A stretch of 7,179 nucleotides of DNA from an uncultured Collinsella sp. (GTDB lineage: Bacteria > Actinomycetota > Coriobacteriia > Coriobacteriales > Coriobacteriaceae): the NCBI GenBank assembly GCA_937981515.1, contig CALJNY010000167.1:1-7179 (forward strand). The letters are read 5' to 3'. The position numbers and the translations under genes are program-made. Shown piece after piece: positions 2,249-7,179 of this stretch (positions within the stretch are counted from its first letter, which is position 1; every line of letters begins with the position of its first letter). The notes under the pieces were generated by a model, which saw only the letters and a list, made by a program, of their open reading frames with translations, was not told the origin of the DNA and did no database searches.

Positions 2249-2603
2249 GGAAGCCGCGTCCCGTTTTGAAGGCGCGGAACGGGACGCAGTTTCCGCATCG
2301 GCCCCCATCGGGAAGCCACATCCCATAATGGACGCTCAGAGCGGGATGCGGTTTCCGCTTTGGACCCCTGCCGGAAAGCGCGTCCCAGTCTGAAGGTTCA
2401 AAATGGGATGTGGTTTCCGAAACAGGGGCCGTTGGGAAGCTGTGTCCCGGAATGGGCGCCCGGAGTGGGATACCGTTTCCGCAGGAGGCCCATTGCGGAA
2501 ACGGTATCCCAGAATCGACGTTCAAAACGGGGTGCAGTTTCCGCAAGGAGGTCCTGGGGAAACCGTGCCCCGTTCTGAGCTGAAATACCGGGACGAAGCT
2601 TCC
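2249..2603. repeat. Array of six 46-bp imperfect palindromes on a 62-bp period
   Basis: Six units occupy 2249-2294, 2311-2356, 2373-2418, 2435-2480, 2497-2542 and 2558-2603; each is exactly 46 bp. A unit is a 14-bp left arm (consensus GGAARCYGYRTCCC), an 18-bp centre, and the inverted arm. The centre is itself partly palindromic, with TGAA near the left and TTCA near the right in several units. Starts are spaced 62, 62, 62, 62 and 61 bp. Spacers are 16, 16, 16, 16 and 15 bp, mostly begin GC, and have a G-rich then C-rich core that is weakly palindromic. The array can therefore also be read as twelve half-sites in alternating orientation at about 30-32 bp steps. Several arm differences are transitions that keep G-U pairing, but unit 6 has four non-pairing positions. 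The period is not a multiple of three, and frames shift through the array, so it is not coding. It lies between convergent genes, a typical place for REP/BIME-type elements. The family is unrecognised. Confidence 0.9.
2466..2511. repeat. Perfect 18-bp inverted repeat spanning units 4 and 5 of the array
   Basis: TGGGATACCGTTTCCGCA at 2466-2483 is exactly complementary to 2494-2511, with a 10-nt loop (2484-2493). It joins the right arm of unit 4, the ends of the spacer, and the left arm of unit 5. It is the longest perfect stem I found in the window, and it uses the spacer-centred rather than the unit-centred register. Confidence 0.9.
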
Positions 2604-2700: not shown

Positions 2701-3450
2701 TTAGGAGCGGGCGGCTCCGTCGACGGGGAGCACGGCGCCCGTGACATAGGAGGCCATGTCGCTCGCTAGGAAAACGAAGGCGTTGGCGACATCCTCGGGC
2801 TCGCCCATGCGGCCGAGCGGAATAGTGGCGACGATGGGCTTGATGACCTCTTCGGGCAGGTTGGCGACCATGTCAGTCTTAGTCACGCCAGGGGCAACGG
2901 CGTTGACGCGAATACCCATAGGGGCGAGCTCACGCGAGAGCGACTGGACCATACCGTTGACGGCAAACTTGGACGTGGGGTAACCGACGCCGGAGGGCTG
3001 GCCGTACTTGGCGACCATCGAGCTTGTGGTAGTGATGGTGCCGCCGTGGCCGGCCTCGGTCATGATCTTGGCGGCAGCCTGGTGGCCATTAAAGACGGCG
3101 ACGACGTTGAGGTCCATGACTTTGGCGAACTCCTCGGCCGTGTAGTTCAAAAGGGGCGAGCGCTGGGAGATTCCGGCATTGTTGACGACCGTGTCCAGGC
3201 CGCCCATGTCGGTTGCAGCCTGGGTAAAAGCCTCGGTCACGGCCTCGAGTGAGGCGAGGTCGCAGGAGCGGCCCCAGACCTTGGCGTCGGGATAGGCGGC
3301 CGCCAGCTTCTCAACGGCCGTATCGGCAGTCTCCTGGCGCGAGCCAAAGACGGTGACGGCAGCGCCCTCCTCGATAAAACGGCAGGCGATCGCATAGCCG
3401 ATACCGCGCGTGCCTCCGGTGATGATTGCTTTCTTGCCCTCGAGCAACAT
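2701..3450 (-). CDS. Classical SDR oxidoreductase, BaiA/FabG-like
   Basis: This is a 249-residue NAD(P)H-dependent alcohol/ketone oxidoreductase with a single Rossmann fold. Visible motifs are the cofactor loop TGGTRGIG (11-18), D64-L65 for adenine binding, NNAG (90-93), and the catalytic set N115, S144, Y157 and K161 (YPTSK). APGVTKTDM and a C-terminal DGA segment also fit. S37-R38 after the second strand suggest NADP(H) preference; this is inference. From memory, the pattern (TGGTRGIG, FGxxQExxDTA, VFNG, SGVGYPxSK, VAPGVxxTDM, RMxEPE, VDGA) resembles the BaiA 3-alpha-hydroxysteroid dehydrogenases of bile-acid-converting gut clostridia. It also overlaps generic FabG-like 3-oxoacyl-ACP reductases, so the substrate is open. 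The frame is open further upstream, but ATG at 3450 is chosen because GAGGAAG sits just before it and the protein then starts MLLEGKKAIITGG, the usual SDR start. It is probably monocistronic, since a terminator separates it from hom. Confidence 0.9.
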   Translation of the reverse strand: MLLEGKKAIITGGTRGIGYAIACRFIEEGAAVTVFGSRQETADTAVEKLAAAYPDAKVWGRSCDLASLEAVTEAFTQAATDMGGLDTVVNNAGISQRSPLLNYTAEEFAKVMDLNVVAVFNGHQAAAKIMTEAGHGGTITTTSSMVAKYGQPSGVGYPTSKFAVNGMVQSLSRELAPMGIRVNAVAPGVTKTDMVANLPEEVIKPIVATIPLGRMGEPEDVANAFVFLASDMASYVTGAVLPVDGAARS

Positions 3451-5264: not shown

Positions 5265-6431
5265 ATGTTTAGCATCAACAACGTACTTAACCGCAGGAGT
5301 TTATTGGCTGGCGCTGCGGCGCTCGGTAGCACCGCAGCACTCGCTGGTTGCTCGTCGGGTGGCTCGGACGGCGGCTCCGCCGATGACGGCAAGACCTTCA
5401 AGATCGGTGTCATCGGCCCTTTGACCGGCGCCGCGGCAACCTATGGTGTCTCGGCCGAGAAGGGTGCCAAGCTCGCCGCCAAGGATTTCTCGACCAAGGA
5501 CCTCAAGCTCTCGCTTAAGTCCGAGGATGACGTCGCTGACGGCGAGAAGGCCATCAACGCCTTCAATACCCTGTGCGACTGGGGCATGCAGGCTCTCGTC
5601 GGCCCCGTCACGACTGGTGCCGCCGTTGCCGTCTCGGGCGAGATTGCCGACGACATGCTCATGGTCACGCCCTCGGCCTCGTCTCTCGATGTCACCAAGG
5701 ATAAGACCACGGTCTTTCAGGTTTGCTTCACCGATCCCACTATGGGCGCCAGCGCCGCGAAGTTCTTGGCCGAGAAGTACGCGGACGCCAAGATCGCCTT
5801 GTTTTACAACTCCGGCGATACGTACAGCTCGGGTGTTGCCGATGCCTTTGCCGAGCAGGCCAAGGAGTCCAAACTTGATATCGTCGATACCGAGACCTTT
5901 AAGGACGATTCCTCCACGAGCTTTACCAACCAGCTCACCAAGGCCAAGGAGGCCGGCGCCACGCTCATCTTTGCGCCGATCTACTACACGCCGGCGTCCG
6001 TTTTGCTCAAGAACGCCAAGGACATGGGCTACGACATGACGCTCATGGGTACCGACGGCATGGACGGCCTGCTCTCTGTGGAGGGCTTCGATACCTCTCT
6101 TGCCGAGGGCGTACTGCTCATGACCCCGTTTTCGGCTGACGATGAGAAGAATGCCGACTTCGTCAAGGCCTATAAGGATGCCTACGACGAGACGCCCAAC
6201 CAGTTTGCCGCCGACGCTTACGATTGCGTCCACGCCATCGCCGAGGCTATCGATAGGGCGGGGATTGACATTTCGGCCGACGGTGCCGACATTGCCGGCG
6301 ACCTTGCCAAGGCCATGCGCAAGATCAAGATCGAGGGCCTGACAGGCGAGCTGACGTGGAATGACGAGGGCCAGGTCGAAAAGCCCGCCACAGCCTATGT
6401 GATCCAGGACGGCAAGTACATCGCCGCCTAA
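5265..6431 (+). CDS. Branched-chain amino acid-type ABC transporter substrate-binding lipoprotein (copy 1)
   Basis: This is an extracellular receptor, anchored by lipid to the outer face of the membrane, that delivers ligand to an ABC importer. The protein has 388 residues, usual for LivJ/LivK-type proteins. The signal peptide has a twin-arginine NRRSLL (9-14), a hydrophobic core, and lipobox LAGC with Cys29 as the lipidated residue. A Ser/Gly/Asp linker (30-42) follows, then the type I periplasmic-binding fold from about 45 to 388: FKIGVIGPLTG (45-55), the hinge-side segment DWGMQALVGPVTTGA (105-119), TPSASS (135-140), YNSGDTYSSG (181-190), LMGTDGMDG (260-268) and NQFAADAYD (312-320). These are family hallmarks for leucine/isoleucine/valine receptors, but related proteins bind other amino acids or amides, so the ligand is not certain. 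An in-frame TTG 66 bases upstream was rejected because ATG at 5265 has AAAAGGGGG five bases before it and gives a proper signal peptide. A paralogue follows. Confidence 0.9.
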   Translation: MFSINNVLNRRSLLAGAAALGSTAALAGCSSGGSDGGSADDGKTFKIGVIGPLTGAAATYGVSAEKGAKLAAKDFSTKDLKLSLKSEDDVADGEKAINAFNTLCDWGMQALVGPVTTGAAVAVSGEIADDMLMVTPSASSLDVTKDKTTVFQVCFTDPTMGASAAKFLAEKYADAKIALFYNSGDTYSSGVADAFAEQAKESKLDIVDTETFKDDSSTSFTNQLTKAKEAGATLIFAPIYYTPASVLLKNAKDMGYDMTLMGTDGMDGLLSVEGFDTSLAEGVLLMTPFSADDEKNADFVKAYKDAYDETPNQFAADAYDCVHAIAEAIDRAGIDISADGADIAGDLAKAMRKIKIEGLTGELTWNDEGQVEKPATAYVIQDGKYIAA

Positions 6432-6702: not shown

Positions 6703-7179
6703 ATGTCGAGCCTCACCGGTAAGTCATTGAACCCTGTTATGAATCGCAGGAGCGTTATCGCGAGCGCAGCAGGTCTGGGGGCGATGTCCATTCTAGCTGG
6801 TTGCTCCTCCAACGGCGGCGACAGCGGTTCCGCTTCGAGCGACGCTTCGTTTAAGATCGGTACCATCGGCCCGCTGACCGGCGCCAACGCGTCCTACGGC
6901 AAGTCCGTTACCCAGGGTGTCGAGCTTGGCTGTAAGGATTTCTCGACCAAAGAGCTGCCGCTTGCCAGCAAGGCCGAAGATGACCAGGCCGACGGCGAGA
7001 AGGCCGTCAACGCCTTCAACACCCTGCTCGACTGGGGCATGCAGGCCCTCGTCGGTCCGACCACCACGGGTGCGTCGGTTGCCGTTGCCGCAGAGTGTGG
7101 CAACGACACCAAGTCGTTCATGATCACCCCGTCCGCGTCCTCCGAGGACGTCACCGACGGCAAGGATTGCGTCTTCCAG
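6703..7179 (+). CDS. Branched-chain amino acid-type substrate-binding lipoprotein (copy 2, cut by window edge)
   Basis: The first 159 codons of a second receptor are present; the gene runs off the right edge. The signal peptide has NRRSVIAS (14-21), a hydrophobic core and lipobox LAGC with Cys34 as the lipidation site, then a Ser/Gly/Asp-rich linker. The binding domain opens FKIGTIGPLTG (50-60) and continues through KDFSTKELPL, DGEKAVNAFNTLLDWGMQALVGPTTTGA and TPSASS. By eye about two-thirds of the aligned mature residues match copy 1, so the pair arose by tandem duplication. Differences cluster around residues 62-78, 84-95 and 129-141. ATG at 6703 is preferred over the internal ATG at 6739 because GAGAGGAGAG lies at 6689-6698 and nothing similar precedes 6739. 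Permease and ATPase genes (livHMGF type) would be expected beyond the edge but cannot be seen. The ligand is inferred from the family only. Confidence 0.9.
   Translation, partial: MSSLTGKSLNPVMNRRSVIASAAGLGAMSILAGCSSNGGDSGSASSDASFKIGTIGPLTGANASYGKSVTQGVELGCKDFSTKELPLASKAEDDQADGEKAVNAFNTLLDWGMQALVGPTTTGASVAVAAECGNDTKSFMITPSASSEDVTDGKDCVFQ

Follow-up and report, generated by a model that had tools for sequence, protein, structure and literature searches.

The window, by which we mean the whole stretch of 7,179 nucleotides analysed here, belongs to Collinsella, and relatives of its exchanger protein with 95-99% amino-acid identity were found in 20 Collinsella loci (one cut short). The gene for this sodium/proton exchanger was called as an open reading frame at 671-2233 on the plus strand (PF00999, Pfam E-value 4.3e-38), and its 3' end is followed, 15 bp past the stop codon, by an array of short inverted units. 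The convergent neighbour is a short-chain dehydrogenase gene (2701-3450, minus strand; open reading frame, PF13561). Behind the array stands a separate terminator-like hairpin at 2618-2656 (no strand assigned; 16-nt arms, 7-nt loop, T-run at the right end), which was located by an inverted-repeat search and by orthologous alignment; no T-run of the kind that marks an intrinsic terminator was detected behind the window units themselves. Further along the window, two neighbouring, similar-looking genes for periplasmic-binding lipoproteins were observed at 5265-6431, which matches PF13458, and at 6703-7179, which leaves the window.

The array comprises six units of 46 bp without assigned strand, each formed by one plus-strand and one minus-strand half-site of 14 bp. 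The units lie at 2249-2294 (half-sites 2249-2262 and 2281-2294), 2311-2356 (2311-2324 and 2343-2356), 2373-2418 (2373-2386 and 2405-2418), 2435-2480 (2435-2448 and 2467-2480), 2497-2542 (2497-2510 and 2529-2542), and 2558-2603 (2558-2571 and 2590-2603), the plus-strand half-site being given first in each case. The linkers between them, likewise unstranded, measure 16 bp four times (2295-2310, 2357-2372, 2419-2434, and 2481-2496) and 15 bp once (2543-2557). The starts of successive units are 62, 62, 62, 62, and 61 bp apart, and each half-site is inverted relative to the one before it, with successive steps of 32 and then 30 bp (29 once), as the first-pass annotation of this DNA had described it: six inverted units on a 62-bp period, equivalent to twelve alternating half-sites. 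The arms match at 12, 12, 11, 11, 11, and 9 of 14 positions in units 1 to 6, the last unit being the most degenerate. The spacers had also been called weakly palindromic, and this was borne out by the majority letters of 194 distinct 16-bp linkers from the whole family, GCATGGGGCCCCATCC.

A half-site scan of the window that tolerated up to two mismatches gave 15 matches, compared with 1.43 expected and a largest value of 5 in 200 shuffles. The array accounted for 14 of the 15, namely the twelve half-sites and two second-strand matches one base off. A repeat finder reported 4 copies at 62-bp spacing that were 69-70% alike; the array was absent from the list returned by a tandem-repeat finder. 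Rfam 15 gave no match in the window at the gathering score, and no similar DNA was detected among phage records.

Of 43 Collinsella genomes, 22 held 20-51 units each in a pattern search allowing two mismatches and 20 held none, as did 22 further genomes of the taxonomic family; the reversed pattern, used as a control, had no match in any genome searched. A single match in one genome (G023) was attributed to chance, because the inner features of the family were absent by eye. Among 296 genomes drawn from the class, matches occurred only in 20 known carriers and in G023. The array family is therefore confined to one Collinsella group among the genomes searched. When a 1.8-kb region was used as the query, the best DNA matches of the carriers were 91-100% identical (in G033 across 719 bases only), whereas among 21 other Collinsella genomes 14 matched at no more than 74% and 7 had no match. 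Judged from this contrast in identity, the carriers look like one clade, made up of Collinsella aerofaciens and its close relatives, and their common ancestry explains part of the regularity of the arrays.

The geometry was followed in G003, a complete chromosome, by means of a half-site profile that imposed no rule on length. Eleven arrays were detected, in which the inner step, between the two half-sites of a unit, was 32 bp in all 27 cases; the outer steps were 30 bp (17 cases), 29 bp (one), and 21 bp (one), and one same-strand step of 19 bp was seen. Outside these arrays, the scan returned a strong half-site standing alone in one place and 38 weaker isolated matches, compared with 37 for the reversed profile at the same threshold. 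A set of 97 distinct arrays was then assembled from G003, the window, and loci fetched from relatives. Of its 333 inner steps, 329 were 32 bp, three were 31 bp, and one was 30 bp; the outer steps were 30 bp in 231 cases and 29 bp in 39, with 21, 31, 32, and 56 bp once each, and five more odd neighbour pairs comprised four same-strand pairs and one inverted pair at 62 bp. The count of detected half-sites was odd in 31 of the 97 arrays, so that some ends are not full units. Homologous flanks placed the arrays in 21 groups, and since adjoining arrays can merge, the number of loci is at least 21. The inner step was exclusively 32 bp in 19 of the 21 locus groups, and 8 groups showed 29 bp besides 30 bp between units. 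Thus, arrays of this design are present in at least 21 locus groups of relatives, neither restricted to the window nor irregular elsewhere, nor does the length of their units vary freely. The first-pass proposal of a stricter constraint on unit length than on sequence holds for the window array and genome-wide.

According to the gene calls made in this analysis, overlaps with genes exceeding 20 bp were absent from all 97 arrays; a cruder gene calling of G003 had included two long frames whose starts reached into arrays. The first-pass annotation had likened the position between convergent genes to that of REP/BIME-type elements, and the family is indeed intergenic and leans towards convergent gaps as those elements do. 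In G003, 5 of 11 arrays lay in such gaps, compared with 138 of 994 gaps of at least 100 bp (p = 0.011), or 4 of 11 (p = 0.055) when one weak 201-bp gene call was left out. Across the 97 arrays, many of which are mutual orthologs, 48 contexts were convergent, 24 tandem, and 18 divergent, with 7 left unassigned; by majority, the 21 locus groups comprised 9 convergent, 8 tandem, 2 divergent, and 2 unassigned. These mixed contexts do not force a single role at gene ends. The neighbours of the arrays are ordinary genes, including those for the exchanger, a patatin, thiamine-phosphate synthase, FeoB, and DnaK, and one array of G003 follows the tmRNA gene. At G003:C1:144440-144651 and in L007, the dehydrogenase was not called beside the array, and the next gene is sized like the homoserine dehydrogenase of the window; accordingly, it is with the exchanger gene that the array remains associated. 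An ATPase/DUF234 gene was observed with arrays on both sides (L214:812-2758 and G003:C1:1162052-1163803). It was considered as a partner of the arrays and dropped, as close copies (94-100%) were found in just 15 of the 22 carriers, five of them with a TGA stop counted inside the match.

The number of units differed between orthologous loci. At the window locus, where units were counted by length and by eye, six were present in L001 and L017, five in L019, four in L002, L003, L005, L008, L009, L010, L012, and L018, three in L007 and L015, and two in L004 and L011. A lone half-site was all that was present in L006, L013, L014, and L016, that is, at 4 of the 19 readable loci (L020 being cut short), indicating that the array is dispensable at the window site. 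A second convergent locus was readable in 14 genomes and in G021 (five reverse-strand loci were left unread and three were without a flank). One unit was found there in G003, G001, G009, G026, G024, G011, G010, and G034, two in G031 and G035, three in G019 and G018, and four in G005 and G002. The length steps of about 62 bp, together with mosaic units, suggest that arrays may lengthen and shorten through in-register recombination between units. In G021, a 1281-bp element (L278:213-1493, G021:C2) occupies the symmetry centre of a 46-bp unit at this locus and is bordered by AGG at either end. Matches to the rve and HTH_21 domains were obtained for its open frame, as is the case for IS3-type elements, and one copy was detected in G021 and none in eight other genomes searched. 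Certain elements of the IS3 family target REPs, according to the passages of PMC1525189 that deal with them.

Each 14-bp half-site contains eight core positions (GGAAA-N6-CCC). Substitutions were counted in 22 disjoint equal-length pairs of orthologous arrays with at least 75% identity, covering 9 of the 21 locus groups, with edge half-sites excluded. The results showed 5 changes in 1008 core positions, compared with 70/756 at variable arm positions, 61/1134 at inner positions, and 72/1048 in linkers. The core thus changed about 14 times more rarely than the linkers (core/linker ratio 0.00-0.14 by bootstrap over the nine locus groups), a figure that may be helped, despite the exclusion of edges, by the half-site scan through which the arrays were found; pairs of unequal length did not enter it. 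When edges and overlapping pairs were included (48 pairs), the core showed 43/3232 changes against 146/2384 in the linkers. These patterns argue that the core positions are kept by selection at resident loci; gene conversion alone would not be expected to spare the variable positions.

The first-pass annotation had also raised selection on hairpin geometry and had treated the whole 46 bp as a palindrome. Self-complementarity was indeed good in the 14-bp arms, but inner positions 15-17 matched less often than in re-paired halves (z -4.2 to -5.8), whereas the central position 22 matched more often (z 4.1). In addition, GAAT tends to sit in one half of a unit and not in the other, and this mixed kind accounts for 67 of 122 units, which limits longer palindromes. 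The 122 units (below 85% identity) matched at the six variable arm positions with a frequency of 0.556, compared with 0.532 (sd 0.016) after re-pairing, and 69 of 1000 shuffles were as high. A stricter set of 73 units gave 0.532 against 0.500 (sd 0.021) and a covariation index of 0.06, and the 23 units of G003 gave 0.507 against 0.513 and an index of -0.01. A different inverted family of G003, used as a positive control, gave 0.623 against 0.496 in 13 pairs, with an index of 0.25 and 14 of 2000 shuffles as high, confirming that the test can detect covariation. A further G003 hairpin family offered 4 usable pairs, too few for a verdict, and orthologous terminators varied too little to serve as controls. 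Clear arm covariation was thus absent, the variable arm positions changed as fast as the linkers, and the suggestion of a selected hairpin geometry was not upheld. The maintained pairing that belongs to a REP hairpin was likewise not found in these units, beyond a small excess of Watson-Crick pairs over re-pairing that persisted, oriented sets included, with z of about 1.5 to 2.3; it could be explained by relatedness or by weak pairing. Halves facing each other across linkers also matched slightly above chance (31 of 1000 shuffles as high). In tandem contexts, an asymmetry between G.T and A.C (71 to 35, p 0.0006) was considered as a sign of RNA-hairpin selection and then dropped, because composition-matched re-pairing gave 76.8 G.T against the 71 observed; no such bias was found in convergent contexts, with the strand taken from the nearer gene end.

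The geometry, the absence of clear covariation, and the core constraint point to paired sites in duplex DNA, which we think somewhat likely to be bound by a putative sequence-specific protein rather than read as a hairpin. The 46-bp unit is an inverted pair of 14-bp half-sites at a nearly fixed step of 32 bp, and the putative protein would occupy both members of the pair, with about three turns of the helix between them, on one face of the DNA. Adjoining units may be bound side by side with neighbouring pairs in register, and the nucleoprotein patch formed in this way at gene boundaries could act in supercoiling, in nucleoid organisation, or in separating convergent transcription. Helical phasing, which had been offered as one reason for the strict length, is compatible with a step of 31 bp, or about three turns. 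Iterons and the site clusters of nucleoid proteins are repeated duplex sites on a near-helical pitch. Such phased operator arrays may be comparable, but unlike them the Collinsella sites span many loci and alternate in orientation.

A rather unlikely alternative is that the units are miniature transposons whose 14-bp terminal inverted repeats were read as duplex by a transposase that is lost or unrecognised, so that the arrays are tandem remains. Inverted ends, a fixed unit length, and the presence at many loci would suit such an element, ends read as duplex DNA would need no covariation, and a second family of similar design resides in the same genomes. However, the cores are conserved at resident orthologous copies, unlike in relics, neither a target duplication nor a clean empty site was demonstrated, and a tandem period of 62 bp is atypical of insertion.

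Hairpins formed in the RNA of 3' untranslated regions, which would block exonucleases or end transcription, are an unlikely explanation as well. The position of the window array between the exchanger stop and the terminator-like hairpin is what this would predict, a folding energy of -33 kcal/mol was obtained for unit 1 together with the bases that flank it, and 9 of the 11 G003 arrays lie within about 270 bp after a gene end, that of tmRNA included. Against this, the other two are not close behind a gene end, one of them lying 263 bp before a DnaK gene, and substitutions at the variable arm positions are at least as frequent as in the linkers. Covariation was not clear, and units oriented by transcription showed no excess of G.T, that is, G.U in the RNA, beyond composition.

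The usual view of intergenic palindromic repeats is that of hairpins disseminated by RAYTs, and a REP/REPIN-type miniature element, mobilised by a RAYT (TnpA-REP) that recognises the folded single strand, would account for the intergenic position, the inverted pairs, their alternating orientation, and the number of units per genome. Homologs of Y1 transposases were detected in 37 of the 43 genomes, and one RAYT subfamily (76-100% identical to the query) occurred in 21 of the 22 array genomes and in 0 of the 21 others. However, this co-occurrence tracks one genome group and may reflect one event. The first-pass annotation had pointed to a RAYT-type protein as a possible linked transposase, and such linkage was not found: no half-site was present in the flanks of 22 RAYT genes (20 from 14 genomes and two in G003; 18 in carriers and 4 in array-free genomes), within flanks of up to about 2.5 kb, one locus being shorter. 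As to the two RAYTs of G003, the first is flanked by other inverted repeats at either end, and a different palindrome stands 3' of the second. In the carrier subfamily (L229-L249), the tyrosine of the RYVHANP stretch, which we take to be catalytic by comparison with E. coli TnpA-REP and in agreement with a shorter Pfam match, is replaced by serine in 17 of 21 copies, and 11 of the 21 carry a changed HUH motif, with the frame open. Median dN/dS was 0.125 where the copy was intact (four cases) and 0.26-0.43 for the altered groups, which suggests a looser yet present constraint. The unit counts were not lower with altered RAYTs (23-51 vs 20-47). Neither the half-site profile nor the 4-8 bases next to it contained a GTAG tag, and CGTC appeared solely as one YRTC variant inside the half-site. 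Together with the lack of clear arm covariation, these results make RAYT-driven spread of a hairpin improbable. That the regularity arose merely through recent duplication of a neutral tandem repeat is hardly credible: copy changes of about 62 bp at a time would fit, as would mosaic units, yet the window units are only about 70% alike while the inner length is constant and the core far more conserved.

BIMEs are intergenic, vary in unit number, and are thought to work at gene boundaries in enterobacteria. Those of E. coli form arrays of short elements with regular spacing and alternating orientation, as described in PMC2817692. Binding by gyrase, IHF, or DNA polymerase I is a further BIME trait. 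The Collinsella elements are similarly spaced and oriented; however, their half-sites are 14-bp sites of duplex type without an evident REP hairpin or GTAG tag, clear covariation of their arms is lacking, linkage to a RAYT was not found, and they belong to a different phylum. The REPIN unit is an inverted REP doublet. The Collinsella unit is also an inverted doublet, but units of 46 bp stand in phased tandem arrays, no unit-bounded RAYT was found, and pairing is not maintained. In the sections of PMC3733652 that treat them, CGTC-tagged REPs are often dimers, intergenic, and without a dedicated transposase, with heterodimers common, stems of 8-9 bp, loops of 4-5 nt, and often a CCA tail. The halves of the Collinsella unit also differ beyond chance at positions 15-17, but its 14-bp half-sites do not fit the stem-loop plan given there. 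The same survey suggests that heterodimers may escape SbcCD cleavage, and by analogy with that part of it the mixed unit halves would fit such an escape. On the best reading, the layout is BIME-like and the elements are not hairpin REPs, as the REP features that were tested (hairpin maintenance, RAYT flanking, and the tag) failed. The family was not found described in the open-access articles searched for REP, REPIN, or BIME elements of Collinsella, for intergenic palindromes and repeats, or for the half-site strings. The main text of the RepRanger article (PMC12306157) does not contain the word Collinsella or Coriobacteria, nor does that of the GTAG/CGTC survey (PMC3733652) contain Collinsella or Coriobacter.

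A second array family, unrelated in sequence, was observed in G003 through a k-mer count; its half-site is GTTACAGATYGAGA, again in alternating orientation, e.g. at G003:C1:467921-468295. It gave 93 matches, compared with 5 for the reversed control, and its steps were 41 bp (42 cases), 39 bp (18), and 40 bp (9), with four single others, giving a period of about 80 bp. Its halves showed no covariation. The 55-bp pair of this family was present 25-66 times per genome in exactly the same 22 carriers; among the remaining 21 genomes, three had a single copy and the rest none.

The reading as protein-bound duplex sites may extend to a system of chromosome marking in the Collinsella aerofaciens clade, in which at least two unrelated families of phased paired operators (with periods of 62 and 80 bp), each with its own protein and a fixed two-site geometry, are placed at gene boundaries, selected, and actively kept from forming hairpins; we offer this tentatively, as a possibility that we do not favour. 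The Collinsella data separate two readings of such repeats, in that the palindrome appears as two inverted copies of one site, with the hairpin not maintained and the sites strongly constrained. Collinsella, a genus common in the human gut, offers a testable case of a REP-like family that may be kept for binding, accompanied by a second family built in the same way. Whether repeats of this type are parasites or sites that organise the chromosome can be tested directly.

G003 also holds further inverted families, with pairs of cccTATTtCACCGCAACT at 57 bp, whose arms covary, and pairs of GAGATTATCCAC at 46 bp, as well as ACCACCACAAAGG hairpins and GTCTGTCCCCAATGA repeats that adjoin a RAYT.
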